Part shown: positions 22,897 through 64,000 of the stretch, piece after piece | Layout of the letters: each line of letters begins with the position of its first letter | Numbering within the stretch: position 1 is the stretch's first letter | IMG/VR virus record: IMGVR_UViG_3300027969_000063 | Location: 41,517 to 105,516 of that record | Length of the DNA stretch: 64,000 bases | Strand: one strand, 5' to 3' | DNA from: a virus | The notes under the pieces: generated by a model | What the model was told of the DNA's origin: nothing | The model's input: the letters and a program-made list of their open reading frames with translations, nothing else | The model's database searches: none | Position numbers and translations under genes: made by a program

Positions 22897-22901
22897 ACTA
22901 G

Positions 22902-22909
22902 TATTTATG
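22902..22909 (-). promoter_or_regulatory. Late promoter CATAAATA, start at the ATG
   Basis: CATAAATA followed by CTAGT and then the ATG at 22896. With T4 spacing the first transcribed base is the A of the ATG. It lies between the gp23 terminator and the tube-like gene. Confidence 0.65.
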
Positions 22910-22913
22910 TAGC

Positions 22914-22943
22914 CAAAAAAAAGACCACCCGAAGGTGGTCTTT
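22914..22943 (-). terminator. Strong terminator after gp23
   Basis: AAAGACCACC and GGTGGTCTTT form a perfect 10-bp stem with a TTCG loop on the minus strand, followed by a T-run. It ends the gp23 transcript 26 bases after its stop. Confidence 0.92.
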
Positions 22944-22969
22944 CAAATATCACTCTACGGTGATTTTTA

Positions 22970-38995: not shown

Positions 38996-39792
38996 GTTAT
39001 CCTATCCCATAAATCTCTCCACCCTAAGTGAGTGGTTCTTATTGTTGCCGGTTCATTAAATGAAAGATGATACGCTACAGATGGTATTGGACTAAACACC
39101 TTTACATGACCTGTACCTTCTTCATAGTTCTCATATAACTTGTTTATAAACTGATCTTCTGCCGCATCAGGAAAGGTCAAAGCCAATCCTTTAAATACTT
39201 CAAAATTATCTTTAAAGAAACTTTGATGTGCAAATATGGTATTGGCAGTATGGCGAACTTGCCTCCAATACCGAACACCATCATATAGAAGAATAGTAAG
39301 ATACTCTCTACCTACATCATATCTAAATGCACAATCATAAGGATACAAAGCAATTGGATTTGGATATTTTTGTGTCAAATAATTATAAGCAATCAACATA
39401 CTGTTTAAAGCATTCTCTTCGTGCAAATAATCATCTTCTACCGAATATACCATATCTTCGGACTCAGCACACATCTCAAACTGCTTAAGTGCTGATTGTT
39501 TAAATCCTTTAGTTTCTAAACTGATTAACTCAACTTCTTTACTACACTTACTTAACACTTCTCTTAAATCTACCAAAAAAGATTCAATACTATTATCATC
39601 CAGTACGGTCAATTTAATATCTTCAACGACCACACAGTTATTGATTGCATTTACTAAAGACGTGGCACACTTTAGGACCATACCTTTCCTGTCGTCACCA
39701 CATATTCTTGGTAACTGCTGAACTGTTGGTTGATTAGTGCCTTGCTTAGGTACTTCTTTCTCACAAGTCCTTAGTATGACATGAAGCTTCAT
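38992..39792 (-). CDS. GT-A type glycosyltransferase, paralogue B
   Basis: 266 residues. LHVILRTCEKEVPKQGTNQP, IKLTVLDDNSIESF, QSALKQFEMCAESEDMVYSV and EDDYLHEENALNSMLIAYNY repeat the motif order of paralogue A. The SPIPSVAYHLSFNEPA end is also shared. It overlaps both neighbours by four bases (ATGA-type), so the cassette is translationally coupled. Duplication of one ancestral gene is the simplest origin. Confidence 0.82.
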   Translation of the reverse strand: MKLHVILRTCEKEVPKQGTNQPTVQQLPRICGDDRKGMVLKCATSLVNAINNCVVVEDIKLTVLDDNSIESFLVDLREVLSKCSKEVELISLETKGFKQSALKQFEMCAESEDMVYSVEDDYLHEENALNSMLIAYNYLTQKYPNPIALYPYDCAFRYDVGREYLTILLYDGVRYWRQVRHTANTIFAHQSFFKDNFEVFKGLALTFPDAAEDQFINKLYENYEEGTGHVKVFSPIPSVAYHLSFNEPATIRTTHLGWRDLWDRIT

Positions 39793-43046: not shown

Positions 43047-46000
43047 TTACCTTCTAAAGTTACTTCCAGCACCACCAGAGAATAGGTTGGCGGTATAACC
43101 TGTGGCTAATTGTGCTACTAATACCGGACTAGATCTTGTGACAGTTGATCCATCACCGTACTGACCTACAGCATTATTACCCCAAGCATACAGGTAACTA
43201 TTGGTTTCATTATCAGTTGTAATGGCTATCGTGGTATTATTACCTATAGCAACATCAATAATATTTAAATTTGATATGGCTATATTTACAATGTCGGGAG
43301 TGGACCTACTGGTTGGAACAGTATTAAAACCAAAAGCATTATTGGTATTTGCACCCCATGCATATAAGGAATCAGATAAATTAATACCAAAAGCTGTACT
43401 AAGTCCAATAGATAAAGATTTCCAACCTAAACCTTTTGAATTTTTAATATTTGATTGATTTATTATGGCAGCTCGATCTGTAACACTGGCAGGACTAACT
43501 GTGGTTCCAATACCCATTTGTCCATAAGTATTGTTTCCATAACCATAAGATACATTATTATTATCTAAAAGAAGATAATATTGTACACCACCACCGCCAC
43601 CAGTAACAGCTGTTTTCCATGGCACTCCAGTTGATGCGGAATTTGAAACGATTGATGGTACACCTCCGCCATTTCCCCAATTAAACAAACGGCCAGCAAT
43701 ATCAATAGCTACCGAACTATTACCATTACAATTTATAAAAGAAAAAGAAGATCCACTAACAACCGTTACAGGAGTTGATTTAGAAATTACGGTATTATCA
43801 CCTATTTGACCACTAGAGTTACCGCCCCATCCAAATAAACGGCCTGTGTTAGTAATAGCATGGCCAGCTGTTACCATTGTCCATGAAACTGTGGTAGAAC
43901 CTTCAGCACCAATTTTAACCGGAGATGATCTATTAATTAAAGTACCGTCACCTAAATCACCACTACTATTATCACCCCATGCATATAAAGCACCAGTTAT
44001 ATCAATAGCAAAATTATTATAAGAACCAGCATATACAGATGACCATGAAGATGTACCAATTTTTACAGGAGAAGATTTATTAATAGTTGTACCATCACCG
44101 AATGCGCCAAATAGACCAGTTCCCCAAATGTATAAAGCACCCGTAGTATCAATAGCAATAGTGTTGACATATCCAGCACTTACTGCTGACCATGATTTGG
44201 TACCAATTTTTACTGGAGAAGATTTATCAATCGTAGTACCATCACCTAATTGGCCATTAACATTATAACCCCATGTATAAAGAGCACCTGTAGTATCAAT
44301 AGCTGCTGAATGTCGATTTATTCCAACACTAAGTATAGTCCAAGAATTGCCAAACAAAAGTTGTGGAACAGTTTGTCTTTCAGTAAATGTATTACCTGCT
44401 ATACCGTTACCTAACATTCCATCATTATTGGAACCCCATGTATAAAGAGAACCATCATCACTTATACCACCAGAAGTGGGGCCAAGAGCGCCACCAGTTC
44501 TAAGTAATTTCCAAGATGTAAATGGCTTAGAGTTTGTAATTATTATTGGTTGTGATTTACCAATTGTTGTACCATCACCTAATTGTCCATATTGGTTATC
44601 ACCCCAAATATAATTATATCCATTTTTAACTCCTGTAGTATTTTGATAGTGCGCTTTTACTGAAGTCCAAGGATAAACATCAATTAATACAGGCGAAGAT
44701 TTATCAACTATAGTACCGTCACCCAATCGGCCAGAATTATTGGAGCCCCATGCATGCAATTGGCCAGCAGCAGTAAGACCGACTGTAAAATAGTTACCAA
44801 CACTCACTATTGACCATGAACTTGTACCAATTTTTACCGGTGTAGATTTACCAATTGTTGTGCCATCGCCTAAATTACCACTTGAATTAGCGCCCCATGT
44901 GTACAGAGCACCAGTAGTAGTAATAGCAGCAGTATGGGAACCATCAGCAGATACCGCTGACCATGAAGAATAACTGTTTAATGCTTCGTTTATCACAGAA
45001 ACTAATACTGGTGAAGATTTAGAAACTGTTGAGGTATCACCTAATTGTCCTTGATTATTATAACCCCATACATATGCATTGTTTGCAGTAGTAATGGCTG
45101 CTGTGTTATATTGTGAAGCACTCACGGCTGACCATGAAGAAGAGGAATAACCACTAGTAGTTGTCGAAAGCTGAACAGGTACCGATCTACTAGCTGTTGA
45201 AAGGCCACCTAAGTTACCATAAGGATTGTAACCCCATAACCATAAAGAACCAAGCGTATCAATAGCAGTAGAAGTAGAATATCCAGCAGAAACAAAATTA
45301 AAAGAAATGTTTGATGTGGTATCATAAGGATAACCTAATACAACAGGAGAACTTGTTAAATTGCTAGGTAATATATTAAAATAATTAATACTACCCCAAT
45401 TCCATAAAAGACCATTAATATCAATCGCTGATACATTTGATGTCATTGAAAATACTTTTGTCCATGAGCTAGTACCAATTTGTACTGGTGATGATTTATT
45501 GATTGTAGTGCCATCACCTAATTGGCCTTGAGCATTATAACCCCAAACGTATAAAGCACCATTTGTGGCAATACCTGCTGATGTTGAAAAACCAGATGAT
45601 ATTGCTGACCATGAACTAGAACCAATTTTTATTGGTACTGATCTATTAGATGTTGTACCGTCACCTAAGAAACCTAAGTTATTTTGGCCCCATGCATACA
45701 AAGAACCAGTAGTATCAATACCAAGAACATAACCAGATCCAGCACTTACTGTAGTCCATGAAGAATAAATGGCAGCTGCATTATTTCCAATACCAATGAA
45801 TACTGGTGAAGATTTATTAATTGTGGTACCGTCACCTAAACCACCATAAAGATTATAACCCCATGTATATAAATTACCAGAAGTGGTAATACCAATAACA
45901 CCGAAAATATCTGAACCTATGAATGACCATGAGCTTGTACCAATTTGTACAGGTGAGGATTGATTAATTGTTGTACCATCACCTAGTTGGCCATAAGTAT

Positions 46001-49000
46001 TACTACCCCATGCAAATAATCGGCCATTAATATCAATAGCTCTGTGACCATCGTATCCTGCAGCTAACTTAGACCATGAACTTGTACCAATTTTAACGGG
46101 TGATGATTTATTAATTGTAGTACCATCACCCAATTCACCATTGCTATTATTGCCCCATGTAAATAAGCTGCCATCTTTTGTAATACCAGCTGTATTAGAT
46201 GGACCACTTATGGATATGATTGTCCATGAACTCGAACCAATTTTTATTGGAAATGATTGATTAGTTGTATTACCGTTGCCTAACTGACCAGTAGAATTAG
46301 TACCAGTCATCCATAAACCACCATTAACATCAATTCCTCCTGTGTGGTTGTAACCAAGGCTCACTATTGTAAATGAAGAACCACTATTAATTAATACCGG
46401 TGAGGATTTAGCAACTATAGTACCGTCACCTAATGCACCATTGGTGTTATTGCCCCATGCATACCAAGCACCAGAAGAGGTAATACCTGCCATGTAACTT
46501 ACACCTGCAGCCACAAATGCCCATGAAGATGTGCCAATTTGTACAGGTGAAGATTTAGTGACTGTGGTATTATCACCTAATTGGCCGGCAGTATTTTGAC
46601 CCCATGTGTATAGACGGCCGTTAATATCAATACCTGCTGAAGCAAGTCCTTTTACGCTTACTCTAGTCCATGAAGAGCTACCAATTTTAATTGGTGCTGA
46701 TTTATTATTTGCAGTATTATCACCTAATTGACCATTAGGATTATAACCCCATGTATATAAAGCACCAGTAGAGGTAATAATTGCTTGATTATATTGACCA
46801 GAAGCTACTTGATTCCAAGAAGAATAATATACTGAAGATGTTTGAATTTTCACCGGCAATACATAAGAAAGATTTAAACCTAAATCCGTACCAATTTCTC
46901 CAAAACTATTATCTCCCCATGCCCATAAAGCACCAGTAGAATCAATTGCGCTCGTATGATACGAACCAACAGATACAGATGTCCATGAAGAACTACCAAT
47001 TTGTACAGGTGATGATTTGGCAACCAATGTACCATCACCTAAATTACCAAAACCATTAGCTCCCCAAGTAAATAACCGACCATTAATATCAATTGCTGCA
47101 GTGTTATTACCAACACTTACTTTTGTCCATGAGCTAGTACCAATTTGTATTGGTGATGATTTATTAACCGTAGTACCATCGCCTAATTGTCCATTAGAGC
47201 CACTACCCCACGCAAACAATCGACCTACAGTATCAATTGCTGTTACATAAGAAGTGCCTGCAGCTATAGCTAACCATGAAGAAGAACCAATTTTTACTGG
47301 AGAAAATCTAGTAGTTACTGTACCGTCACCTAATTGGCCTTGTTGATTGTCACCCCATGACCACAATGATGAATCTGAATTTTTAATGGCTAAAAAGAAA
47401 TTAGCAGGACCTCCAGTAATTTGTTTCCATGCACCTGGTATACTTGGTGTTGTAACTACTGGTGAAGATTTATTAATTGTTGTGCCATCACCTAATTGTC
47501 CAAGAGAATTATCACCCCAAGCATATAATTTTTTAAGCGAATCGCTAGCAATGGTGTGTGCTTGGCCTGCACTTACTGCTGACCATGATGAAGTACCAAG
47601 TTGTACTGCAGAAAGTTTATCAATCGTGTTACCGTTACCCAATTGACCTGCAGCATTACCACCCCATGTATATAATTTACCACTAGTGGTGATAGCCGCT
47701 GTGTGCGATACGCCAGCAGTTACAACTGTCCATGAAGAATAGACGTTTAATACAGGATCATATGCAGTAACGAATACAGGAGAAGATTTGGAAGTTGCCG
47801 TACCATCGCCTAATTGGCCTGATGTACCAAGACCCCACATGTATGCTGTATTTGCAGTAGTAACCGCAGCAGTATGAGTACCACCAGCAGATACAGATGT
47901 CCAAGATAAAATTGATGGATTGCTAGTTGGGCCAACTTTAAATGCTGTAGTTTTGTTTATTGTTGTGCCATCACCTAATTGACCGGTAGCATTACCACCC
48001 CAAACATATAACGTGTTTGCAGTAGAAATAGCAGCAGTATGAGAACCACCAGCAGATACGGATGTCCAAGATACAATTGGATTAGTTGGAGCTAAAACAA
48101 ATACAGGCGATGATTTGCTAACAACAGTATTATCACCCAATTCACCAGAGGTACCAAGACCCCATGTAAACAGAACACCAGTTGTTGTGATACCCGCTGT
48201 GGTTGAACCGCCTGCACCTATTGATGACCATGAGCTTGTACCAATTTTTACTGGAGAGGATTTATTAACAGTAGTACCATCGCCTAATATACCACCAGCA
48301 TTATTACCCCATGTATATAAAGCGCCTGTAGTATCAATAGCGGCTATACTACCATTACCAACGTTTGACACAACTGCAATCCATGAACTTGTACCAATTT
48401 TTACTGGAGAGGATTTGGCAATTGTAGTACCATCACCCAAGTAACCTGTGTCAGAAGCATTAGCACTCCATGTAAACAAAGATCCATCAATAGTAATACC
48501 TGCACCAGCAGTTACTACTGACCACGAACTAGATCCAATTTTAACAGGAGAAGATTTAGTAACACTTGTGTTATCACCTAATTGGCCAACATTACCAAAA
48601 CCCCAAGCATATAAAGCACCAGTAATATCAATAGCCCAAGCATTAAGTGAACCAGCAGCTACTTTTGTCCATGAAGAAGAACCAATTTTGACTGGTGAAG
48701 ATTTAGTAACTGTAGTATTATCACCCAATGCACCAAAACTACCACTACCCCATGTCCATAAAGCACCAGTGGAATCAATCGCAACTGCGTGCTGATTTCC
48801 AGCAGCTATTGTACTCCATGAATTATTACCAATTTGTACTGGTGAAGATTTAGTAACTGTAGTACCGTCACCTAATTGTCCAACGTTGTTGTAACCCCAT
48901 GCATACAGAGCACCAGCAGTAGTAATACCAAACGCAACTTGAACTCCTGCAGCTACTACTGACCATGATGATGATCCAATTTTTACTGGTGAAGATTTAT

Positions 49001-51152
49001 TAACTGCTGTATTATCGCCTAATTGACCTATAGCGCCATTACCCCATGTCCATAAACCACCAGTAGTATCAATAGCAACTGCAGCTGATATGTTATAACT
49101 TATTTGACTCCATGTGCTTGGTATAGTAACAGTTGTTTGTACAGGAGTAGATTTATTAATTGTAGTACCATCACCTAATTGGCCGGTAGCATTATTACCC
49201 CAAGCAAACAATTTACCATCTGATGTAATACCGGTTGAGTGTGTACTACCAGCACTTACTGATGACCATGAACTGGATCCAATTTGTACAGGTGAAGATT
49301 TGTTTATTGTTGTACCATCACCTAAGTGACCGTTAGTATTTTGACCCCAAGTATATAAGGCACCGGTAGTGGTGATACCTGCTGTATGTGAAGCACCAGC
49401 TGATGCTACTGACCACGATGATGTACCAATTTTTACTGGTGAAGATTTGGCAACTGTAGTATTATCACCAATTTGACCGGTAGCATTAGAACCCCACGCA
49501 TATAAATTACCATTAATATCAGTAGCGGTAGTATGTATATCACCAGCAGATACAGATGACCAAGAAGAAGATCCAATTTTTACTGGTGAAGATTTTGAAA
49601 CTATTGTGCCATCGCCTAATTGTCCTGAAGTACCAAAACCCCAAGCATATAAAGCACCAGTAGAATCAATAGCAACTATATGTGAATTGCCTGCAGATAC
49701 AGATGACCATGAAGATGTACCAATTTTAACTGGTGAAGATTTTGAAACTACTGTATTATCACCCAATTGTCCTATGGAATTATTACCCCAAGTATATAAG
49801 GCACCGGTAGTGGTGATACCTGCTGTAAATGTTCCATTTCTATTAGCTGAAAGTTGTTTCCAAGTAGGCGCTGAGATTATAGGAATTAATACGGGTGACG
49901 ATCTATTAGTTGTGGTGCCGTCACCAATTTGACCAGTAACATTATAACCCCATGCATATAAATTACCATTAATATCGGTAGCAGATGTGTGATATTGTCC
50001 AGCACTTACTGTTGTCCATGAAGAAGAACCAATTTTAACGGGAGAAGATTTAGCAACGGTAGTATTATCACCTAAACCACCATAATTATTATAACCCCAA
50101 GCATAGAGCGCACCAGTAGAATCAATGGCGGCCATATGTGAAAAACCGGCTGATACTATTGACCATGAGTTTGAACCAATTTTAACAGGAGAAGATTTAG
50201 AAACTATTGTATTATCGCCTAATGCACCATAATTGGTGTTATTGCCCCATGTATACAAAGCACCATTAGTGGTGATACCTGCTGTAAATCCTGCTCCAAT
50301 ACTAGTTACAATTTGTTTGAAAGAAAAATTACCATTTGCAAAACCAATTTGTGTTGGTGTACTATAATATGGTTGACCCGTTATGTAACCAACTTGACCC
50401 GCATCATTTTGACCCCAAGCCCATAGTCCGCCATTTGTTGTAATACCTGTTACATATTGACTTCCAGCACTTACAGATGTCCATGAAGATGTACCAATTA
50501 ATACCGGCGATGATTTATTAATTGTAGTACCATCACCTAATTGATTACTACTATTTAAACCCCATGTATACAAAACGCCAAGTGAATCAATTGCTGCTGT
50601 ATAAGATTGTCCTGCACTCACTATACTCCAAGATTTATTTCCAAGTTGTGTTGGTGTTGATTTGTCAATTGTAGTACCATCACCTAATTGGCCATTATTA
50701 TTAAGGCCCCATACAAACAAAGCACCATCAGTAGTACGAATGGCTGCAAAATGATTGCCAACACCTTGACCTCCTGTAATTGATTTCCAAGGATACTCAA
50801 CAGTTTTTGTTATTGATATTGCTACTGGTGAAGATTTGTTAATTGTAGTACCATCACCAATTTGATAAGCTGAATTATTACCCCATGTGTATAATTTATT
50901 ACCTGTTACAACACCAAAATTAGCATAACCAGATTCAAGTGCTGTAATACTTCCTAAAGGTATTGATGTTGGAGTGGATTTACTGACTGTTGTACCATCA
51001 CCAAGTTCTCCGTTGCTAGCGTTACCTAATACATATAAAGTTTGAGCTGCATCTAATATAGCTGTAGTACCAGAGCTAGTTGTTGCTATTTTTGTAACAG
51101 TATTAGCAGTTGATAAAACTGGAACTTGTGTTGGAAATGAAGTAGTGGTCAT
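43047..51152 (-). CDS. Giant RCC1-repeat beta-propeller protein (2701 aa)
   Basis: An uninterrupted frame of 2701 residues made almost wholly of RCC1-type repeats of about 47-52 residues. The typical unit is VSAGxxHTAAID, GALYxWG, NxxGQLGDGTT, xxKSSPVKIG, SSWS. I read 14 consecutive units in the first 700 residues, so about 50 in total by length. RCC1 repeats form seven-bladed propellers, so several propellers in a chain are expected. It has no signal peptide or membrane segment. Location before the glycosyltransferase cassette and neck genes suggests a virion appendage (tail fibre or adhesin), by inference. The C-terminus is an Arg-Arg tail. Late-type GATAAATA lies upstream. Confidence 0.85.
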   Translation of the reverse strand: MTTTSFPTQVPVLSTANTVTKIATTSSGTTAILDAAQTLYVLGNASNGELGDGTTVSKSTPTSIPLGSITALESGYANFGVVTGNKLYTWGNNSAYQIGDGTTINKSSPVAISITKTVEYPWKSITGGQGVGNHFAAIRTTDGALFVWGLNNNGQLGDGTTIDKSTPTQLGNKSWSIVSAGQSYTAAIDSLGVLYTWGLNSSNQLGDGTTINKSSPVLIGTSSWTSVSAGSQYVTGITTNGGLWAWGQNDAGQVGYITGQPYYSTPTQIGFANGNFSFKQIVTSIGAGFTAGITTNGALYTWGNNTNYGALGDNTIVSKSSPVKIGSNSWSIVSAGFSHMAAIDSTGALYAWGYNNYGGLGDNTTVAKSSPVKIGSSSWTTVSAGQYHTSATDINGNLYAWGYNVTGQIGDGTTTNRSSPVLIPIISAPTWKQLSANRNGTFTAGITTTGALYTWGNNSIGQLGDNTVVSKSSPVKIGTSSWSSVSAGNSHIVAIDSTGALYAWGFGTSGQLGDGTIVSKSSPVKIGSSSWSSVSAGDIHTTATDINGNLYAWGSNATGQIGDNTTVAKSSPVKIGTSSWSVASAGASHTAGITTTGALYTWGQNTNGHLGDGTTINKSSPVQIGSSSWSSVSAGSTHSTGITSDGKLFAWGNNATGQLGDGTTINKSTPVQTTVTIPSTWSQISYNISAAVAIDTTGGLWTWGNGAIGQLGDNTAVNKSSPVKIGSSSWSVVAAGVQVAFGITTAGALYAWGYNNVGQLGDGTTVTKSSPVQIGNNSWSTIAAGNQHAVAIDSTGALWTWGSGSFGALGDNTTVTKSSPVKIGSSSWTKVAAGSLNAWAIDITGALYAWGFGNVGQLGDNTSVTKSSPVKIGSSSWSVVTAGAGITIDGSLFTWSANASDTGYLGDGTTIAKSSPVKIGTSSWIAVVSNVGNGSIAAIDTTGALYTWGNNAGGILGDGTTVNKSSPVKIGTSSWSSIGAGGSTTAGITTTGVLFTWGLGTSGELGDNTVVSKSSPVFVLAPTNPIVSWTSVSAGGSHTAAISTANTLYVWGGNATGQLGDGTTINKTTAFKVGPTSNPSILSWTSVSAGGTHTAAVTTANTAYMWGLGTSGQLGDGTATSKSSPVFVTAYDPVLNVYSSWTVVTAGVSHTAAITTSGKLYTWGGNAAGQLGNGNTIDKLSAVQLGTSSWSAVSAGQAHTIASDSLKKLYAWGDNSLGQLGDGTTINKSSPVVTTPSIPGAWKQITGGPANFFLAIKNSDSSLWSWGDNQQGQLGDGTVTTRFSPVKIGSSSWLAIAAGTSYVTAIDTVGRLFAWGSGSNGQLGDGTTVNKSSPIQIGTSSWTKVSVGNNTAAIDINGRLFTWGANGFGNLGDGTLVAKSSPVQIGSSSWTSVSVGSYHTSAIDSTGALWAWGDNSFGEIGTDLGLNLSYVLPVKIQTSSVYYSSWNQVASGQYNQAIITSTGALYTWGYNPNGQLGDNTANNKSAPIKIGSSSWTRVSVKGLASAGIDINGRLYTWGQNTAGQLGDNTTVTKSSPVQIGTSSWAFVAAGVSYMAGITSSGAWYAWGNNTNGALGDGTIVAKSSPVLINSGSSFTIVSLGYNHTGGIDVNGGLWMTGTNSTGQLGNGNTTNQSFPIKIGSSSWTIISISGPSNTAGITKDGSLFTWGNNSNGELGDGTTINKSSPVKIGTSSWSKLAAGYDGHRAIDINGRLFAWGSNTYGQLGDGTTINQSSPVQIGTSSWSFIGSDIFGVIGITTSGNLYTWGYNLYGGLGDGTTINKSSPVFIGIGNNAAAIYSSWTTVSAGSGYVLGIDTTGSLYAWGQNNLGFLGDGTTSNRSVPIKIGSSSWSAISSGFSTSAGIATNGALYVWGYNAQGQLGDGTTINKSSPVQIGTSSWTKVFSMTSNVSAIDINGLLWNWGSINYFNILPSNLTSSPVVLGYPYDTTSNISFNFVSAGYSTSTAIDTLGSLWLWGYNPYGNLGGLSTASRSVPVQLSTTTSGYSSSSWSAVSASQYNTAAITTANNAYVWGYNNQGQLGDTSTVSKSSPVLVSVINEALNSYSSWSAVSADGSHTAAITTTGALYTWGANSSGNLGDGTTIGKSTPVKIGTSSWSIVSVGNYFTVGLTAAGQLHAWGSNNSGRLGDGTIVDKSSPVLIDVYPWTSVKAHYQNTTGVKNGYNYIWGDNQYGQLGDGTTIGKSQPIIITNSKPFTSWKLLRTGGALGPTSGGISDDGSLYTWGSNNDGMLGNGIAGNTFTERQTVPQLLFGNSWTILSVGINRHSAAIDTTGALYTWGYNVNGQLGDGTTIDKSSPVKIGTKSWSAVSAGYVNTIAIDTTGALYIWGTGLFGAFGDGTTINKSSPVKIGTSSWSSVYAGSYNNFAIDITGALYAWGDNSSGDLGDGTLINRSSPVKIGAEGSTTVSWTMVTAGHAITNTGRLFGWGGNSSGQIGDNTVISKSTPVTVVSGSSFSFINCNGNSSVAIDIAGRLFNWGNGGGVPSIVSNSASTGVPWKTAVTGGGGGVQYYLLLDNNNVSYGYGNNTYGQMGIGTTVSPASVTDRAAIINQSNIKNSKGLGWKSLSIGLSTAFGINLSDSLYAWGANTNNAFGFNTVPTSRSTPDIVNIAISNLNIIDVAIGNNTTIAITTDNETNSYLYAWGNNAVGQYGDGSTVTRSSPVLVAQLATGYTANLFSGGAGSNFRR

Positions 51153-51177
51153 ATTTTTTTATTTTATTAATATCTAA

Positions 51178-51185
51178 TATTTATC
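51178..51185 (-). promoter_or_regulatory. Late-like promoter GATAAATA before the 2701-aa gene
   Basis: GATAAATA on the minus strand overlaps the stop of the 4228-aa gene. The predicted start near 51172 leaves a 20-base A/T-only leader with no Shine-Dalgarno sequence. Confidence 0.5.
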
Positions 51186-54100: not shown

Positions 54101-57100
54101 GAATTATTTAATCCTCTCGACACTTCACTCCATGTAGAAGATATTGTTGTTGAAGTATTTGCTTGTTGTATTATTACTGGTGAAGATTTACTAATTGTAG
54201 TACCATCACCTAGTTGGCCACTAGTATTTTGACCCCATGTAAACAAACGGCCAATAGTATTAATTGCAGTAGTATAAGAATTACCAAGAGCTACGGATGA
54301 CCACGAATCGGTTCCTATTTGTACAGGTGAAAATTTATTAATTGTGGTACCATCACCTAGTTGGCCAACATTATTTAAACCCCAAGCAAACAAAGCTCTT
54401 GCACTTGTAATAGCTGCTGTATGAGTACCACCAACAGCTACGGCTGACCATGAAGAATAAACATATGTTGTTTCATTATAAACATTAGAAACGGTTACTG
54501 GTGATGATCTAGTAATTGTAGTACCGTCACCTAATTGATATGAAGAATTAAAACCCCATGCAAATAAATTACCAGTCAAATTAATTGCAGTGGTAAAAGA
54601 ACTACCATTACTAACAGCTACGGTTGTCCATGAAGAAGTACCAATTTGTACTGGTGATGATCTAGTGGTTACTGTATTATCACCTAAGTTGCCTAGACCA
54701 TTATAACCCCATCCATACAAACGACTGTTTATATCAATACCCATTGTATGGAGATCACCTGCGGCCACTTTAGTCCATGAGCTTGAACCAATTTTTACCG
54801 GCGATATATTGTTAGTTGTACTGTTGTTACCTAATTGACCATAAGCATTATATCCCCAACCATATAAAGCACCAGTAGTATCAATGGCGGTAGTATAATT
54901 AGTACCTGCACTTACTGCGGTCCATGAAGAATAAACATTTAATGCTTCATTGTATGCTGTAACTAATACTGGAGATGATCTACTGGTTACGCTACGGTCA
55001 CCTAATTGGCCAGAAGTATTAAGACCCCAAGCATATAAATTACCTGTAATATCAATAGCTTTTGTGTTATTATTACCAGCACTTACTACTGACCATGAAG
55101 AGGTACCAATTCTTGCTGCTGTAGATTTAGTTGTTGTTGTATTATCGCCTAATGCACCATAAGTACCACTACCCCATGTCCATAAAGCACCGGTAGTAGT
55201 AATAGCGGCACCACCTGAGGCGCCAGCAGACACAGAAGTCCAAGACGGAAGAGAAGAACCTGTTACAGTATCCGCTAACGTACTCAATAATACTGGTGAA
55301 GATTTAGAAACTGTTGAATTATCAGCTAGTTGTCCATATTGATTGCTACCCCATGTATACAAAGTACCATTACTTAATATACCAGTAGTATAATTATATA
55401 GTGCTGAAGCTGGCATATTAACGGCCACGGCCGACCATGAAGAAGTACCAATTTGTACAGGAGAAGTTTTATCAACAGTAGTATTATCACCTAAATTTCC
55501 ATAACCATTATAACCCCATGCAAATAAAGCACCAGTAGAAGTAATTGCCGCAACGTGTTGTGAACCAGTACTTATTGATGACCAAGAATAAGTTGATACA
55601 ATTTTAGTTGGATAAGAAAGATTTTGTTGACCATATATTCCTGGAATAAAAGTATAACTACCCGATAATGCTTTTTGGTAACCCCACATATACAAACTGC
55701 CATTAGTATCAATTGCCGATTGAGTAGATCCACCAGCATTTACAAATGACCAAGAAGAATAAGTAACTGTGGTGCTATCTACATTAAGTGCTGTTAATGA
55801 ACTTAATTGAAATGGTGGACTACCTGCAGCTGAGTAAGCTGTGCCATCTGTAGCAATAGCAACTGGTTGTGTATAACCAGCATCTACAAATGACCAAGAA
55901 GAAGTACCAATTTTTGTTGGTGACGATCTAGAAATTACTGTACCGTCACCCAAACGACCATCGCTATTTTGACCCCATGTATATAGAGCACCAGTAGTAT
56001 CGATGGCATATGTATAATCCCATCCAGCGGATACTTGTGTATATGAATTTGTACCATATATTTGAGTTGGTGTAACTATAAAAGTTTGGCCGTTACCTAA
56101 TCCACCACTATAACTTGCACCCCATGTCCATATTCGGCCAAGAGTATCAATAGCTGCGCAATGACTTTGGCTAATACTTACCATGGTCCATGAAGAACCT
56201 GCAGGACCAATTTGTACCGGCGAAGAATAGTTAACACTATTAAATCCGTTTTGACCTATACTACCGGAACCCCAAGCAAATAGTCGACCAACAGCATCGA
56301 TAGCTAAAGTTGTAAATGCTGATTTACCAGTAGCAACCATTGCCCATGAAGAAGTACCAATTTTTTGTGGAGTGGTTTGAGGAGTAGTTGCATTACCAAT
56401 ACCTAATTGACCCTGAGCATTATAACCCCATCCATAAAGTTCTCCAGAAATAGTAATGCCCATGGTATAACTATGACCGGCTGAAATTTTACTCCAAGAA
56501 GATGCGCCCACTCCAATTATTCGTTTTGGCGCACTAACAGTAGTTGTTGTACCATCGCCTAATTGATAAGTACTATTATTACCCCACACCCATAAACGAT
56601 TAAGGGTATCAATAAGCATGTAATGATTGGTTCCTGCTGATACTGATGATACTTTAGGACCAAAACCGTAAAGTGATCCGCCATAATTATTATAATAAAG
56701 ACTAATAGTATACAAATTTTGATTATTATCAACAGCATAAGCATTTTGATTTGTATCAATAGATATTTTGCTTAAAGGTACTGTTGCTGGTTTATTAGAA
56801 ACTTGTCCTGCTGCACCACCACTGGCCCATGTATATAAATTTCCTAAATTATCAATTGCAAAAGTTCGATTTGCAGCACTTAGTGAAGTCCAAGATTGAG
56901 TTGAAGGAGCTAAAGGTGTTGATTTAACAAATACTGGTGATGATTTTGTAGCCACTCCTGATCCGTCAGCTAATTGACCATAGGTGTTATCACCCCACAC
57001 ATATAAATTGCCACCAGAATTATATGCTAGAATATTTTGCTGAGTAATCTCTATTGAATTTGGAGACAATCCACTTAAATTAGGAAGAGTTGTCATTATA

Positions 57101-60100
57101 GGACTAACATTGGTGTTATTGTTACCGCTTAAATAATAACCATTATAACCCCAATGCCATAAAGTATTAGTGCTATCAATAGCACAGCTCGCTAAAGCAG
57201 TTTTTGCAAATATCCAACTTCTATCAATACCAATTTGTACAGGTGAAGATTTAGACACGTTAGTACCATCACCTAATTCATATGAGGAATTATAACCCCA
57301 TGTAAACAAACGGCTATTAATATCAATAGCAGATGAAGAGGAATAACCAGCACGCACAAATGACCATGAGCTATTACCAATTTGTACCGGCGAAGCAGCT
57401 GTATATTGAGCAACTGTTGTACCATCACCTAAATTACCATAAGTATTATTAAGTAAACCCCATAAACGACCAACGGTATCAATTGCAAGAATATGAGCTG
57501 CACCTTGAGATGACATTACAAATGAGTTGCCTGCACCCATTTGTACTGGTGAATTTCCTTGTCCTAAACTAGAACCCCAAAAATATAATCGACCACTGGT
57601 ATCAATGGCTGAAAATCCAGCACATTGAAGATCCGTAGCACCTAAAGCTGTCCAGCTTTTATCAGTACCAATTTGTACAGGAGAAGATTTATGAGTAAAT
57701 GTTGAAGCATTATTAATATCACCTAACTGAGAAGCATCATTTGAACCCCATGTGAATAGGCGACCATCAACCGTAATACCTGCTGAAGATGACCTACACA
57801 CCGCTACTGTTGTCCATGAAGAAGTACCAATTTGCATGGCACTATATTGTTTATTTCCTGTTCCTGAATTAACTGAATTATTACCTATTTGGCCACTTCC
57901 ATTAGCACCCCATGCCCATAAAGCACCGGTAGAATCGATGGCTAATGCATGTTGACCTATTGAAACTTTTTTCCAATTACCCGATAATGCAACCGCTACT
58001 GGTGATGATTTATTAACCGCTGTACCATCACCTGGATTGTTACCCCAACTATATGCTTTACCTGTACTATCAATTGCAGATGTAAAAAAGTTACCTGCAG
58101 CCACTTTTGTCCATGAACTAGAGCCAATTTTAACTGGTGAAGATTTTGAAACTGTAGTGCCATCACCTAATTGGCCATAGGTAGCATTAGAACCCCACAC
58201 ATATAAAGCACCTGTAATATCAACAGCAGCTGAATGAGAATTACCAGCAGCTACATATGCCCATGATGATGTACCAATTTTAACTGGCGAAGATTTATCG
58301 ATGGTAGTACCATCACCTAATTGACCGGCAATATTTCGGCCCCACGCCCACAATGATGAATCTTGATTACGAATTGCTAATGTAAAAAATTCATTTTGAG
58401 AAATTTGTTTCCATGTAGCTGTTGTGGATCCAATTAATTGAACGGCTCGAGATTTATCAATTGCAGTATTGTCACTCAATTGACCATTAGAATTATAACC
58501 CCATGCCCACAAAGAACCAGTATAATCAATAGCAGTTGTATGGTAATTACCAGAACTTATTTTTGACCATGATGTATATGAATTTAATGTTTGAGTAAGA
58601 GAAGCGGTAAAAGCAGCAAGAACAACAGGAGAAGATTTGGAAATTGTTGTGCCATCACCAATTGCACCTGATGTGCCAAGACCCCAAACAAATAAATTAC
58701 CATTAACATCAATAGCGGATGTGTGTGTTTGTCCAGCGTATACGGCTGACCATGATGAGGTACCAATTTGTACAGGAGAAGATTTATTAACTGTTTGTCC
58801 ATCACCTAATTGGCCATTAGCATCATTACCCCATGTAAACAAACGACCAACAGAATCAATAGCGGCACAATGAGATTGTCCTGCACTAACAAATGACCAT
58901 GAAGATGAACCAATTTTGGTTGGTAATGATTTTTGAACTGTAGTGCCATCACCTAATTGACCATTAGAACCACTACCCCAAACATATAGAGAACCATCAA
59001 TAGTAATAGCTAATGTATTGGAACCTCCAACAGAAACTTTTGCCCATGAAGAAGAACCTACTTGTACGGGCGATGATTTAGTAACAGTAGTGCCATCGCC
59101 TAAGTTTGCTAAGTTACCATAACCCCATGTAAACAAACGGCCATTAATATCAATAGCGGCCGTATTTGAAGTGCCAGCTGATGCTACTGACCATGAAGAA
59201 GCACCAATTAATGTAGGATTAGATTTACTGGTAGCAGTACTATCACCTATTTGTCCATTAATACCACTACCCCATGTATATAATTTTCCTGTTGTATCAA
59301 TAGCAGCATTATGTAGATAACCTACGGATAGTAATGACCATGAACTTGAACCAATTTTAACCGGAGAAGATTTAGCAACAGTTGTGTTATCACCTAACTG
59401 ACCATAAGTAACGTTACTACCCCATGCATACAAAGCACCAGTAGAATCAATAGCAACTGCATGTGAAAAACCAGCACCAATTTGACTCCACGAAGAAGTA
59501 CCAATTTGTATTGGTGAAGATTTAGCAACTATTGTATTGTCACCTAATTGACCACCGTTATTAGAACCCCATGCCCATAAAGAACCATTAGAACGAATAC
59601 CAAATGTATCTTGAAATGTACCGGGTCCGCCACCTGCTGCGGTTTTACTCCAATAAACTGGTTCTGTATATGTTACAGCTGCAGCTCCAGCTTTTACCGG
59701 TGTGGATCTAGTAACTGTAGTGCCATCACCTAATTGTCCATAAACATTTTCACCCCAAGAATAGATTTGACCATTACTGGATTTTGCTACTGAATAATAG
59801 GTACCAACATCCAAATCAGTCCAAGTAGATGGTATAGTAAATGGTATGACGCTAGTTGAAATTGTTGGAGAATTTACAGGAGTAATATCTGTAATTGGTG
59901 ATGATTGACAAGTCATCAATTTTGTATTTGCTATTGCTGATATTGGTTGAGTTGGTACAGTAAATAATGATCCACTATAAACTGCTGTGCCGTTAACAAA
60001 ACGGAAGTTAGAAATATTTCCAGCAAATGTTGCAGCACCACTACCATCTGCTCCAATTCTTAATGATCCATTTCCTATTGTGCCGGCTTGTGTATCTGTT

Positions 60101-63100
60101 GTTGCATCAAGAGTACCATTAACATATAATTTAACTGTTGAACCTGAACGAACTACAGCAATATGAGCCCATGTATTAATAGACAATGTGCTAGTATAAG
60201 TGGTTGAAATATTACCGTATAGATTTGAAGTTATAGTATTTCCTACTAAAAACCAAGTGTATCTGCCAGTAGCTTCTGAGCCCAATGTAAACAAAGAACG
60301 AGTACCTGTTACGCTAGTTGGATAGTACCAACCTTCAACAGTAAAATCACCAGTACAATTGTATGTCGAATTTATATAACCGGTATTTGTGGTTAAGTAT
60401 TGATTTGTTCCGTTAAATAATACAGAATTAAAACCAAGAGTGCCGGTTGGAATGCTAATTGCTACAGGAGAGGATCTATTTGTAAAAGTATTATCGGCTG
60501 TTGCATTACTATAAGGATTATAACCCCATCCAAATAAAGCACCAGTAGAAGTAATGCCATTTGCCCAATAATTTCCAAGAGATATTACCGACCACGATGA
60601 TGAACCAATTTTTACTGGCGCAGATTTGTTAACTGTAGTACCATCACCTAATTGTCCATAACCATTATACCCCCATGTGTATAAAGCACCAGTAGAATCA
60701 ATGGCGGCCGTACCTAAGTCGCCAACTGCCACGGATGTCCATGAAGAGTTGCCAATTTTAACTGGTGTTGATTTATTAACAGTAGTACCATCACCTAGTT
60801 GACCATTAGTATTATTACCCCATGTGTATAAAGCACCTGTGTTAGTGATACCAGCAAACTGTACTCCATTATCACCAGTAGCAAGTTGTACCCAAGAGTA
60901 TGTTGATCCTGAATTAGCAATTTGTGTTGGTGTACTATAATTTGCAAAGCCAGTTAAGTATCCAATTTGGCCTTGAACATTACTACCCCATGCCCACAAT
61001 TTACCATCTGATGTAATACCTGTTGTAAATAAAGATCCTGCAGATACAGATGACCATGAGCTTGTACCAATTTTTACTGGTGAGGATTTACTAACGGTAG
61101 TATTGTCACCTAATTGATAAGAGCCATTAAATCCCCAAGTATATAAAGCACCTGTAGTATCAATAGCAGCTGTGTGTGTTGATGAAGCAGTTATGGATGT
61201 CCATGAAGAGTTGCCGATTTTAACAGGCAATGATTTGCTAACTGTAGTACCATCACCTAATTTTCCAATTGCACCATCACCCCACGCATACAAAGCACCA
61301 AGCGAATCAATAGCAACCGAATGTGAATATCCAGCACTTACTTTTGACCAAGATTTGGCACTAATTAATACTGGAGAGGATCTAGTAACTACAGTACCAT
61401 CACCAAGTTGACCGCTAGCATTACCACCCCATCCATATAAAAGTCCAGTATTAGAAATAGCTAATGTGTGGCTAACTCCTTCCGAAATTTGAGCCCAAGA
61501 ATGTGGTGTTGCAGAATTAGGAAGTTTTGTTGGTACAGTATATAATGATTGGTTAATAAAGTTTCCAAGTTGGCCAAAAGTATTACTACCCCATGTCCAT
61601 AATGAACCATCGGTTGCAATTGCAGTAGTGTGAGAATCACCAGTACCTATGGATGTCCATGAATTAGAACTTCTTAATGGATATATTATGGTATTTAATG
61701 AAGAAACAACACCACCATTATTAGTAATTGTAAACGCATTGGTGCTGTTATCAATGAATGTGTCTGATTGACAAGTTAACAATGCTGTGTTGGCAATAGC
61801 AGTCAATGGTACAGATAATGTGTTAAAGTCAGATGTATATACAGCAGTACCTTTAACAAAACGAAGATTAGAAATAGAACCAGTAAATCTACTACCACCA
61901 GCGGAAACTGCCTCACCAATGTATAGAGGTTGAGCATTACCATTAAGTGTGGTGGTATTTGTAAATTGTAGAACAGCACGGCCATCCACATAAACTGTGT
62001 TGTTGTTTGTGCCTGAACCATTTCTAACCCAAGCTACATGATGCCAAGTACCATCAGTAATTGGTACTGAAATATCATTTAGTGCCGATTGGCCAATGAT
62101 AGCTCTAAGTAAATTTGATTTAAATCCAAAATTCCATTCACCTAATGCACCTGTGTTATATTGACTAATTATACTAGCGGTTTGAGCATCACTACCATAA
62201 GTTGTATTGAGCCAAGCTTCAATTGTAAAATCACCACTACCTGGCTGATTTGCTACAGTATTAGGAGTACTCAAATAACAACCGCCAGCTCCATTAAATT
62301 GTGAAGCAAAAGTACTAAATGTATTAAGAGCACCAACTTGTACAGGTGAAGATTTACTAATTGTAGTACCATCACCTAATTGATAAGAACCATTTAAACC
62401 CCAAGCATATAATTTTCCATCTGAAGTGACACCAAATCCTGCAGAGTTACCGGCGTTTACTGTTGACCAAGAACTTGTACCAATTTGTACTGGCATTGAT
62501 TTATTAACTACAGTACCATCACCTAATTGTCCAGCAGTATTATTACCCCATGCCCACAATGTTGAATCTTGATTACGAATTGCTAGTGTAAAATTGGCAC
62601 CAGGAGCTTTAGATGCAGAAACAATTCTCCATGAGGAATATGATGCAACAGTATTAACCACTACAGGAGATGATCTATCAATAGATGTACCATCACCTAA
62701 ACCACCCAAATAAGTACCGTTATTTGAACCCCAAGCATATAATGTGCCAAGGCTGGTAACAGCAAATGCTTGAGAATTTCCAACACTTACTGTTGACCAT
62801 GAGCTTGTACCAATTTGTACTGGAGATGATTTAGTAATCGTAGTGCCGTCACCTAATTGACCATTAGCATTAAGCCCCCAAGTAAACAAACGTCCAACAG
62901 TATCAATGGCAGCTGAATAAGAATTAGCTGCACTTATTTTTGACCAAGAGGATGAACCAATTTTAACTGGTGATGATCTAATAGATGCTGTGTTATCACC
63001 TAAAGCACCACTATTAAAACCCCATGCATACAATGCGCCAGTAGAATCAATAGCAATTGTATGAATTTGGCCAGTTGATACTGTTGACCATGAAGAATTG

Positions 63101-63867
63101 CCAATTTTAGTTGGTGCGTATTTAGTGGTACTAGTGTTATCACCTAATTGTCCGCTGGTACCAAGACCCCACATATACAAAGCACCGGTAGTATCAATAG
63201 CAGCTGAAAAATTTGTACCAGCACTTACTACTGACCAAGACCTAGATTTTGAAATTAAAACTGGTTTTGATCTATAACTAACTGTACCAACAGTACCATC
63301 ACCTATTTGGCCACTAGTGGCCAAACCCCAACCCCATAAAGAATAATCCGATTTTCTAATAGCTAATGAATGTACTTGTCCCACACTTACTGCTGCCCAA
63401 GAAGCATAAGATGCAGAATCAATAAAAGTTGTAATTTGAACTGGACTAGAACGATTTTCTACATCTGCTACACCTAGTTCACCAAAACTATTTCTACCCC
63501 ATGACCATAAAGTACCAGCAATAGTTAAACCAACAGTACTATCTGCTTGTGCTGTTACTGATGTCCATGATGATGAACCAATTTTAACCGGTGTTGATTT
63601 ATTAATTGTTGTACCATCACCAAGTTGACCATATTGGTTAAACCCGGTCATGTACAAGCTACCATCAGAATAAACGATGGCTGTATGGTTGTTACCTGTA
63701 GAGGATGTTGGAGAGAACTGTGCGTTTAATGAAACAGGAGTAGACCTGTTGATTGTTGTACCATCACCTAATTGACCATAACTATTCAGACCCCAAGCAT
63801 ACAGAGTTGTCTTAGGTATGTTACTAATGTTTTGTGTTGGTAACGATATGTAGTGGTAGAATAACAT
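51181..63867 (-). CDS. Giant RCC1-repeat protein with two LamG-like domains (4228 aa)
   Basis: 4228 residues in one frame, again RCC1 repeats (LYAWGLNSYGQLGDGTTINR near the start) for nearly the whole length, roughly 70-75 units by length. Two strand-rich inserts match LamG/concanavalin-type jelly rolls. The first is about residues 520-720 (SGDFTIEAWLNTTYGSDAQT, HHVAWVRNGSG, NTVYVDGRAVLQF, LYIGEAV, NLRFVKGTAVY). The second is about 1140-1330 (CTGDFTVEGWYYP, WAHIAVVRSGSTVKLYVNGT, NFRFVNGTAVY). Such domains bind sugars, so receptor binding is plausible. It starts two bases from the end of another tail-type frame. Confidence 0.85.
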   Translation of the reverse strand: MLFYHYISLPTQNISNIPKTTLYAWGLNSYGQLGDGTTINRSTPVSLNAQFSPTSSTGNNHTAIVYSDGSLYMTGFNQYGQLGDGTTINKSTPVKIGSSSWTSVTAQADSTVGLTIAGTLWSWGRNSFGELGVADVENRSSPVQITTFIDSASYASWAAVSVGQVHSLAIRKSDYSLWGWGLATSGQIGDGTVGTVSYRSKPVLISKSRSWSVVSAGTNFSAAIDTTGALYMWGLGTSGQLGDNTSTTKYAPTKIGNSSWSTVSTGQIHTIAIDSTGALYAWGFNSGALGDNTASIRSSPVKIGSSSWSKISAANSYSAAIDTVGRLFTWGLNANGQLGDGTTITKSSPVQIGTSSWSTVSVGNSQAFAVTSLGTLYAWGSNNGTYLGGLGDGTSIDRSSPVVVNTVASYSSWRIVSASKAPGANFTLAIRNQDSTLWAWGNNTAGQLGDGTVVNKSMPVQIGTSSWSTVNAGNSAGFGVTSDGKLYAWGLNGSYQLGDGTTISKSSPVQVGALNTFSTFASQFNGAGGCYLSTPNTVANQPGSGDFTIEAWLNTTYGSDAQTASIISQYNTGALGEWNFGFKSNLLRAIIGQSALNDISVPITDGTWHHVAWVRNGSGTNNNTVYVDGRAVLQFTNTTTLNGNAQPLYIGEAVSAGGSRFTGSISNLRFVKGTAVYTSDFNTLSVPLTAIANTALLTCQSDTFIDNSTNAFTITNNGGVVSSLNTIIYPLRSSNSWTSIGTGDSHTTAIATDGSLWTWGSNTFGQLGNFINQSLYTVPTKLPNSATPHSWAQISEGVSHTLAISNTGLLYGWGGNASGQLGDGTVVTRSSPVLISAKSWSKVSAGYSHSVAIDSLGALYAWGDGAIGKLGDGTTVSKSLPVKIGNSSWTSITASSTHTAAIDTTGALYTWGFNGSYQLGDNTTVSKSSPVKIGTSSWSSVSAGSLFTTGITSDGKLWAWGSNVQGQIGYLTGFANYSTPTQIANSGSTYSWVQLATGDNGVQFAGITNTGALYTWGNNTNGQLGDGTTVNKSTPVKIGNSSWTSVAVGDLGTAAIDSTGALYTWGYNGYGQLGDGTTVNKSAPVKIGSSSWSVISLGNYWANGITSTGALFGWGYNPYSNATADNTFTNRSSPVAISIPTGTLGFNSVLFNGTNQYLTTNTGYINSTYNCTGDFTVEGWYYPTSVTGTRSLFTLGSEATGRYTWFLVGNTITSNLYGNISTTYTSTLSINTWAHIAVVRSGSTVKLYVNGTLDATTDTQAGTIGNGSLRIGADGSGAATFAGNISNFRFVNGTAVYSGSLFTVPTQPISAIANTKLMTCQSSPITDITPVNSPTISTSVIPFTIPSTWTDLDVGTYYSVAKSSNGQIYSWGENVYGQLGDGTTVTRSTPVKAGAAAVTYTEPVYWSKTAAGGGPGTFQDTFGIRSNGSLWAWGSNNGGQLGDNTIVAKSSPIQIGTSSWSQIGAGFSHAVAIDSTGALYAWGSNVTYGQLGDNTTVAKSSPVKIGSSSWSLLSVGYLHNAAIDTTGKLYTWGSGINGQIGDSTATSKSNPTLIGASSWSVASAGTSNTAAIDINGRLFTWGYGNLANLGDGTTVTKSSPVQVGSSSWAKVSVGGSNTLAITIDGSLYVWGSGSNGQLGDGTTVQKSLPTKIGSSSWSFVSAGQSHCAAIDSVGRLFTWGNDANGQLGDGQTVNKSSPVQIGTSSWSAVYAGQTHTSAIDVNGNLFVWGLGTSGAIGDGTTISKSSPVVLAAFTASLTQTLNSYTSWSKISSGNYHTTAIDYTGSLWAWGYNSNGQLSDNTAIDKSRAVQLIGSTTATWKQISQNEFFTLAIRNQDSSLWAWGRNIAGQLGDGTTIDKSSPVKIGTSSWAYVAAGNSHSAAVDITGALYVWGSNATYGQLGDGTTVSKSSPVKIGSSSWTKVAAGNFFTSAIDSTGKAYSWGNNPGDGTAVNKSSPVAVALSGNWKKVSIGQHALAIDSTGALWAWGANGSGQIGNNSVNSGTGNKQYSAMQIGTSSWTTVAVCRSSSAGITVDGRLFTWGSNDASQLGDINNASTFTHKSSPVQIGTDKSWTALGATDLQCAGFSAIDTSGRLYFWGSSLGQGNSPVQMGAGNSFVMSSQGAAHILAIDTVGRLWGLLNNTYGNLGDGTTVAQYTAASPVQIGNSSWSFVRAGYSSSSAIDINSRLFTWGYNSSYELGDGTNVSKSSPVQIGIDRSWIFAKTALASCAIDSTNTLWHWGYNGYYLSGNNNTNVSPIMTTLPNLSGLSPNSIEITQQNILAYNSGGNLYVWGDNTYGQLADGSGVATKSSPVFVKSTPLAPSTQSWTSLSAANRTFAIDNLGNLYTWASGGAAGQVSNKPATVPLSKISIDTNQNAYAVDNNQNLYTISLYYNNYGGSLYGFGPKVSSVSAGTNHYMLIDTLNRLWVWGNNSTYQLGDGTTTTVSAPKRIIGVGASSWSKISAGHSYTMGITISGELYGWGYNAQGQLGIGNATTPQTTPQKIGTSSWAMVATGKSAFTTLAIDAVGRLFAWGSGSIGQNGFNSVNYSSPVQIGPAGSSWTMVSISQSHCAAIDTLGRIWTWGASYSGGLGNGQTFIVTPTQIYGTNSYTQVSAGWDYTYAIDTTGALYTWGQNSDGRLGDGTVISRSSPTKIGTSSWSFVDAGYTQPVAIATDGTAYSAAGSPPFQLSSLTALNVDSTTVTYSSWSFVNAGGSTQSAIDTNGSLYMWGYQKALSGSYTFIPGIYGQQNLSYPTKIVSTYSWSSISTGSQHVAAITSTGALFAWGYNGYGNLGDNTTVDKTSPVQIGTSSWSAVAVNMPASALYNYTTGILSNGTLYTWGSNQYGQLADNSTVSKSSPVLLSTLADTVTGSSLPSWTSVSAGASGGAAITTTGALWTWGSGTYGALGDNTTTTKSTAARIGTSSWSVVSAGNNNTKAIDITGNLYAWGLNTSGQLGDRSVTSRSSPVLVTAYNEALNVYSSWTAVSAGTNYTTAIDTTGALYGWGYNAYGQLGNNSTTNNISPVKIGSSSWTKVAAGDLHTMGIDINSRLYGWGYNGLGNLGDNTVTTRSSPVQIGTSSWTTVAVSNGSSFTTAINLTGNLFAWGFNSSYQLGDGTTITRSSPVTVSNVYNETTYVYSSWSAVAVGGTHTAAITSARALFAWGLNNVGQLGDGTTINKFSPVQIGTDSWSSVALGNSYTTAINTIGRLFTWGQNTSGQLGDGTTISKSSPVIIQQANTSTTISSTWSEVSRGLNNSHTLAIRAEDSTLWAWGQNSVGNLGDGTTISKSTPIQIGSNLDTPTGYRTWSKVSAGGFGVVNAMSAAIDSTGALWTWGSSASGQLGDNAGVSKSSPAKIGTSSWSAVSVGYSNVLAIDTNGRLYAWGDNAVGQLGDGTLVAKSSPVQIGTSSWSMVSCGDSRGAAIDINGRLFMWGNNSLGQLGDNTSAGKSSPVQIGTSSWILISVGFSTTAAIDTTGALYTWGWNASGFMGDGTTINKSSPVKIGTRAWTKVVTSNYATTAIDSIGNLWAWGSNAGGAFGDGTITNRSSPVQVSTSSWTKLSSGQGSSAIDNTGRLFAWGVNNYGQLGDNTIVDKSSPVQIGATVILSTYYSWTVVSAGLDSTFALNTLGRLYSWGNGATSQLGDGGATRSSPVQVGSLSWTTVSAGSTHAAAINTTGNVYTWGLNTSGQLGDGTTTNRNVQTINSVPYSYNTTSWSYVGLSNAIDSTGALYAWGVNASGQLGDGTTISRSVPIKIGSSSWSVVNGNPFSNNNNLGLDINGRLFTWGLASSYQLGDVTTTSKSSPVQIGLDTVVADTSFNLISSGTGNFFYGRGISGSLYGWGNNTNSQLGLGTNPLVNNPQKTLVTTNFYNTSATWKKISLGASHTMAIDTTGGLWVWGLNTSGQLGDNTIVSKSSPVKLGTSSWTFVKASHFISIAITTQGALYAWGFNDRGNPANASAGASTSSPVLCYAGSSFSFVGTNSANNAGGTAYCSTFLLNNNGVATFTGYSVTGEKGDNTSGGFGSSTGQPLTGSSWTIVDVGGGRTGATPGGYVVGITTAGALYAWGDALSGALGDGTVTTKTSWVNKIGNSSWAFVQASSNRTTVGIDIQGRLFMWGDNTWGSLGDGTTINKSSPVQVGNSSWVSVSASFGQILAVDSSGRLFAWGLNSSGQMGDGTTINKSSPVQISVGKSNWISVATGQGHSAAIDSTNTLYTWGLDSNGQLGNLR

Positions 63868-63881
63868 TGACTTACCCTATT

Positions 63882-64000
63882 TTAAACGTTTTGTGCTGAC
63901 ATTACTGCATTGTAACTTGTGCCTGCGTCTGTCGTAAAAATAGTAAGTATGTCCCTTTTACCGTTGGTGTATGTTAATGTTGGAGCTATGCCACTAGGAA
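63882..64000 (-). CDS. C-terminus of a tail/structural protein (cut by window edge)
   Basis: The last 38-39 codons of a minus-strand gene: APTLTYTNGKRDILTIFTTD, then AGTSYNAVMSAQNV. This strand-turn-strand ending, with DILTIFTTDAGTSY, resembles the C-terminal strands of phage fibre-like proteins. It ends 15 bases before the 4228-aa ATG. Only the end is visible, so no function is assigned. Confidence 0.6.
   Translation of the reverse strand, partial: PSGIAPTLTYTNGKRDILTIFTTDAGTSYNAVMSAQNV

Follow-up and report, generated by a model that had tools for sequence, protein, structure and literature searches.

The window analysed here comprises 64,000 nucleotides and corresponds to the terminal 64 kb of an IMG/VR virus record of 105,516 bp (IMGVR_UViG_3300027969_000063). 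As the end of the window is also the end of the record, 133 bp lie between the contig end and the start of the larger of the two very long genes described below (giant A). This gene is separated by 28 bp from the other one (giant B), and both are flanked on the same strand by the remnant of a tail-fibre-like gene and by genes of predicted modifying enzymes:

63885..63998 (-), C-terminal 38 aa of a tail-fibre-like protein ('tip' module, PSGIAPTLTYTNGKRDILTIFTTDAGTSYNAVMSAQNV), truncated at the contig end
51181..63867 (-), giant A, 4228 aa, ATG start
61858..62070 (-), Laminin-G-like insert 1 in giant A, best stretch at residues 600-670 (PF02210, E 3.3e-7 for the protein)
59992..60414 (-), Laminin-G_3 / concanavalin A-like insert 2 in giant A, residues 1152-1292 (PF13385, E 1.9e-31, two stretches in the protein)
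43047..51152 (-), giant B, 2701 aa, ATG start
41213..42988 (-), 591-aa predicted bifunctional enzyme, N-terminal GT9-fold glycosyltransferase fused to a C-terminal SAM-methyltransferase-like domain
39789..41210 (-), 473-aa protein, N-terminal GT-A-like domain and C-terminal methyltransferase (PF08241, 29.7 bits, above the cut-off)
38992..39792 (-), 266-aa GT-A-like glycosyltransferase (family profile A3 against SpsA, 1h7l, E 5e-5; other glycosyltransferases weaker)
38219..38995 (-), 258-aa GT-A-like glycosyltransferase (same family profile A3)

Both giant frames remain open without interruption over the 20.8 kb reported in the earlier note. On the 3' side of the giants the 591-, 473-, 266- and 258-aa proteins are followed by gp13 (Ad2), gp14 (Hc2) and gp15, beyond which lie genes for a collagen-like fibre, gp16, gp17, sheath, tube, portal, protease, scaffold and a gp23-like protein. 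The giants are thus situated upstream of the T4-like neck genes gp13/14/15, as had been noted, but four predicted glycosyl-/methyltransferase genes intervene. The nearest named relatives of gp23 (62–65% identity) come from Methylophilales, Stenotrophomonas, Pelagibacter and Synechococcus phages. A scan of the larger ORFs in the first 40 kb of the record revealed no baseplate gene, and the baseplate genes of this phage probably lie beyond the contig end. A second tail-tube-like gene (window 22366-22953, minus strand; phrog_45, E 8.7e-36) adjoins gp23, the usual one being located at 29318-29860.

The RCC1 content of both giants is far beyond chance. The Pfam RCC1 profile PF00415 gives 111 matches in the record, all of them within giants A and B (best E 4.9e-15), and none of 14 control genomes contains a match. 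The whole-protein scores are 1225.8 bits for the 2701-aa and 1566.1 bits for the 4228-aa protein against a cut-off of 21.7, and both giants match phrog_4219 (E 1.9e-231 and 3e-292). The claim that the frames consist of tandem RCC1 repeats is therefore borne out by the profile search suggested for it, with the exception of the two Laminin-G-like lectin domains which giant A carries beside its blades. With an iterated repeat HMM, 53 blades are counted in giant B and 77 rows in giant A, 1–2 of which fall in a non-RCC1 insert, leaving about 75. The proteins, with masses of 437.6 kDa (giant A) and 275.9 kDa (giant B), are rich in Ser and Thr (26% together) and close to neutral, the net charge being ~+3 over 4228 and ~+1 over 2701 residues, respectively.

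Repeats within the giants are ~49% identical to one another. This similarity is the same (~0.49) at every lag, with no peak at 7 or at any other lag, and an expansion of the arrays via duplication of whole propellers is accordingly not visible. The blades begin within the first 20–40 residues, and Pfam and PHROG searches of both giants gave no N-terminal baseplate- or fibre-attachment domain. For this reason we term the giants members of a tail-fibre module and not classical tail fibres. A peptide scan for full-length close relatives of giant B returned only two contigs, each with several separate RCC1-type ORFs of 380–590 aa, which precludes a strain-level comparison of the whole array.

The fold of the repeats was modelled with AlphaFold2 for residues 1-1100 of giant B together with 20 relatives. 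The model (pLDDT 79) contains a continuous run of four-stranded blades, whose secondary structure agrees with the expected ~50-residue form of blades in the RCC1 families PF00415 and PF25390. With a pTM of 0.41 the model does not extend to how the propellers pack against each other or which blades close with which. Foldseek places the seven-bladed UVR8 and other RCC1 folds as the best PDB matches of the model (TM 0.79 normalised to UVR8). In complete, smaller RCC1 ORFs of other phages the repeat number peaks sharply at 7 (49 ORFs), with a lesser maximum at 14 (8 ORFs); whole seven-bladed propellers as the unit would give such a distribution, but within the giants repeat similarity shows no lag of 7. 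Two ways of placing propeller borders in the giants were tried and rejected: long spacers lack periodicity, and the dips of AlphaFold2 confidence (425-431, 656-681) do not correspond to multiples of 7 blades.

The tip module ends with its stop codon ~14 bp before the start of giant A. It is 37–60% identical (E to 1.6e-9) to the C-terminal ends of fibre proteins encoded just a few bp ahead of RCC1 genes in other phages, and matches the C-termini of phrog_22179/7760/9017 'tail fiber protein' (E 1.4e-4 to 1.1e-3). In one such locus (L251, 1-5154) 'YANGAFxxANAAY' repeats make up a tail fibre of 1718 aa or more, which has the same tip module at its end, just before an RCC1 giant. In many relatives a gene of ~170 aa encoding Phage_tail_APC (PF16778; phrog_4912/4697) abuts the RCC1 start; the two such chaperone genes tested score 46.8 and 55.4 bits with PF16778 against a cut-off of 26.6. 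A chaperone gene is not visible in the window because the contig ends there, and the complete module of fibre tip, chaperone, RCC1 giant and glycosyltransferase/methyltransferase (GT/MT) is present in L259/L250 and in L260/L240.

The linkage was counted in the loci of a pattern scan. Of the 31 RCC1 ORFs that have at least 12 repeats and a non-RCC1 gene upstream, 23 directly follow a fibre-tip or chaperone gene, compared with 4 of 432 ORFs without RCC1. For RCC1 ORFs of all sizes the fraction is 31/77 (Fisher p 3e-24). These counts are inflated, since the seeds of the home-made chaperone and tip HMMs came from genes adjoining RCC1; the Pfam and PHROG matches are independent of them and agree. 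The tip match, the PHROG C-termini and the upstream-gene counts together place the giants in a tail-fibre module.

The enzyme cassette, which the earlier note had overlooked, is the most informative neighbour of the giants. The 591-aa protein is modelled with a pLDDT of 86 and is predicted to have a GT9-like GT-B fold: Foldseek gives the GT9 structure 3tov as the best match (TMt 0.50), other matches being the TibC heptosyltransferase 4rap (0.38–0.43) and methyltransferases, the scores for the glycosyltransferase half being moderate (TMt 0.4–0.5). The fold search alone indicated a glycosyltransferase; the sequence profile searched against the PDB returned none, and PF01075 was reached by sequence only with E 0.14, in a relative of the protein. 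The N-terminal part of the 473-aa protein aligns with the 266- and 258-aa proteins, and the profile of this family matches GT-A enzymes; D57 and D112-D113-Y114 of the 266-aa protein are invariant. Genes for a cytidyltransferase and a nucleotide-sugar epimerase are found elsewhere in the same phage (L214 9042-15205, at ~29 to 35 kb of the record); their products could provide the glycosyltransferases with donors.

Relatives of the 591-aa gene were searched for in IMG/VR without reference to RCC1. Where upstream DNA was available, an RCC1 ORF lies directly upstream in 29 of 32 cases, and the family together with the window forms 21 clusters at 95% identity. For comparison, a search with gp14 yielded 80 loci, many of them too short to reach RCC1; it is present in 15. 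One of the three exceptions, L251, has its RCC1 giant one small ORF away from the 591-aa homologue. The other two (L227/L228) represent one lineage, in which the gene sits behind a 2576-aa protein made of another repeat, 'SSDGxTWT'. The 2574-aa protein of L228 (2105-9826), which replaces the RCC1 giant before the GT9/MT gene, has the repeat 'SSDGxTWTxRTSGT'; it is Ser/Thr-rich, and in Pfam only DUF6242 (PF19755) exceeds the cut-off. This repeat is possibly another type of propeller. In a collection of named phages the glycosyltransferase half was found in BUCT-ZZ01, S-SRM01 and marine virus AG-345-E08, in each case with the gene among RCC1 genes. One further match, weak and partial, comes from an uncultured phage.

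RCC1 proteins were known in tailed phages before, virion proteins included, and the giants of the window are not the only or the largest ones. Three curated PHROGs (phrog_4219, 7220 and 16766) describe phage RCC1 proteins, which also occur in the cyanophages S-SRM01 and BUCT-ZZ01 and in C. difficile and other phages; eleven RCC1-like proteins were described in phAPEC6. Three phrog_4219 RCC1 proteins of W70 (W70_237-239) were detected in the virion by mass spectrometry (PMC11370258), and so was the RCC1 protein GAP_001 of GAP32, as reported in PMC5259590. The term 'RCC1' in papers on RcGTA, rumen phages and prasinoviruses denotes genes or strains and proved to be a false lead. The pattern scan of IMG/VR revealed many further RCC1 ORFs, a large share of them with a single propeller, as well as proteins larger than those of the window. 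The largest complete RCC1 frame among the fetched records (L259 1115-17845) encodes 5577 aa with 101 blades and lies directly behind tip and chaperone genes; another complete frame has 4385 aa, and two contigs contain three consecutive giants of ~3289, 3107 and 5127–5169 aa. Five contigs found via gp14 alone have large RCC1 ORFs upstream of gp14, and one of them (L058/L224) repeats the gene order of the window with nearly identical gene sizes. In the cultured cyanophage BUCT-ZZ01 a tail fibre, a chaperone-like gene and an RCC1 gene with 14 repeats are followed by a homologue of the 591-aa protein at 49%. What is new here is the operon, in which RCC1 giants have fibre/chaperone genes upstream and GT9/MT downstream.

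Alignment of the window with L058 in 250-bp windows shows how identity changes along this operon. From ~250 bp before the end of giant B through the enzyme genes the identity amounts to 88–98%, whereas in the adjoining RCC1 body it drops to 51–62%, which is no better than between unrelated repeats; in the gp13/gp14/gp15 region it is 63–83%. Only the last ~65–130 residues of giant B are thus conserved with its nearest relative. This profile means that the array is either far more variable than the modifying enzymes or exchanged as a cassette, and its fast divergence is consistent with selection by receptors or by defence. The collagen-like fibre gene between gp15 and gp16 (window 33786-35405, minus strand) is 85–100% identical to its counterpart in L058, with gp14/gp15 beside it at 63–83%; these sequences suggest a separate exchange of fibre genes.

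We propose that the giants are virion adhesins of the tail-fibre module, glycosylated and methylated by the neighbouring enzymes, and assign to this reading a probability of roughly 0.6. The operon would run from the tail-fibre tip (and, in many relatives, a tail-assembly chaperone) through the RCC1 giant or giants, the GT9-type GT/MT and the GT-A glycosyltransferases to gp13/gp14. Its giants would be strings of seven-bladed RCC1 beta-propellers with lectin-like inserts, carried on the virion of this phage, displayed on the tail and binding receptors at the cell surface. That they are surface adhesins is argued by the mass spectrometry of W70 and GAP32 virions, the linkage to fibre and chaperone genes, the lectin inserts and the variability of the array; the 'enormous fibre or adhesin' of the earlier note is strengthened by the same evidence and in this sense partly supported, whereas its suggestion of the main receptor-binding apparatus goes further than this evidence. 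The Ser/Thr-rich blades and the tight linkage to GT9/MT suggest that the propellers serve as the substrate and are most likely glycosylated and methylated by the enzymes of the operon, much as autotransporter adhesins are decorated by TibC, although the glycan could instead be placed on another virion protein or on the host surface.

The latter possibility underlies the explanation that competes best with ours: the giants may be tail adhesins while the enzymes act elsewhere (on a glycan of the host surface, on DNA or on some other virion protein), their linkage reflecting hitch-hiking in a host-range island. Glycan genes do gather in such islands of phages, sugar genes are interspersed with RCC1 genes in S-SRM01, and the cytidyltransferase and epimerase genes lie elsewhere on the same record. 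An island, however, does not need a GT9/MT gene directly behind RCC1 as regularly as it is observed across some 20 clusters, and in the lineage devoid of RCC1 this gene immediately follows that of a different giant repeat protein, likewise rich in Ser and Thr. We consider this explanation rather unlikely.

It is improbable that RCC1 proteins are internal capsid proteins which condense or package DNA, even though the name implies this and a role in condensing or ordering DNA in the head was suggested in print for those of phAPEC6 and W70, and their association with the virion in W70 and GAP32 would agree with it. The near-neutral charge of the giants is unlike that of a DNA-binding protein, their size fits the role poorly, and the lectin-like inserts, the linkage to fibre, chaperone and glycosyltransferase genes and a divergence of the array typical for surface proteins speak against it. 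An assembly artefact, a chimera (named in the earlier note as fatal to its proposal) or non-expressed repeat decay can be practically dismissed: the window does lie at a contig end and repeats are prone to mis-assembly, but the frames are intact across 20.8 kb, repeats of ~49% identity are not collapsible copies, and independent contigs from other metagenomes have the same gene order.

If the giants are indeed modified adhesins, the function of a whole annotation class would be corrected, as phage RCC1 proteins currently carry the label 'regulator of chromosome condensation' and are presumed to pack DNA, whereas the operon points to surface adhesins. A phage-encoded protein-glycosylation system with its substrate encoded next door would be added, and it would be explained why some aquatic phages devote to two genes as much as a fifth of a 105-kb contig. 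Our data suggest that very large, sugar-decorated and fast-changing host-binding proteins are widespread in unrelated phages. It is conceivable, if somewhat short of an even chance, that they form an unrecognised class of phage virion glycoproteins, with single chains of up to ~100 blades (to 5577 aa), three consecutive giants in some genomes and a dedicated GT9-methyltransferase for each; these would be very long, sugar-coated adhesive strands which diversify rapidly and in which the blade type (RCC1 or another repeat) is interchangeable. The operon makes the function testable in the cultured BUCT-ZZ01 on Synechococcus elongatus PCC 7942.

In T-even phages gp37 and gp38 form the pair of distal fibre and adhesin. 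The arrangement of genes in the present operon is similar, a fibre gene being followed by a separately encoded protein proposed for the tip, but gp38 is far smaller than an RCC1 giant. With the RCC1 proteins of phages W70, GAP32 and phAPEC6 the giants have the repeat family in common, and with those of W70 also phrog_4219. The W70 proteins, however, are of 40–43 kDa with approximately one propeller each, arranged in tandem, whereas the giants string about 75 and 53 blades on one chain each, include lectin inserts (in giant A) and are accompanied by a cassette of modifying enzymes. The closest likeness in gene order is found in BUCT-ZZ01, where tail fibre, chaperone-like gene, RCC1, the GT9/MT homologue and then gp14 follow one another in the same orientation. 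Its RCC1 protein (UTS52180, annotated as 'BNR repeat domain protein') has 14 repeats in ~700 aa, far fewer than in the giants, and the annotation does not recognise the locus as a module. TibC-type heptosyltransferases decorate autotransporter adhesins (PMC4358343), and the enzymes TibC and Aah with their adhesins TibA and AIDA-I resemble the present system in that a GT9-like enzyme, here matched in fold to 4rap, is paired with a large repetitive adhesin. In contrast to TibC/Aah with their autotransporter substrate, the phage enzyme carries a fused methyltransferase and is predicted to act on RCC1 propellers.
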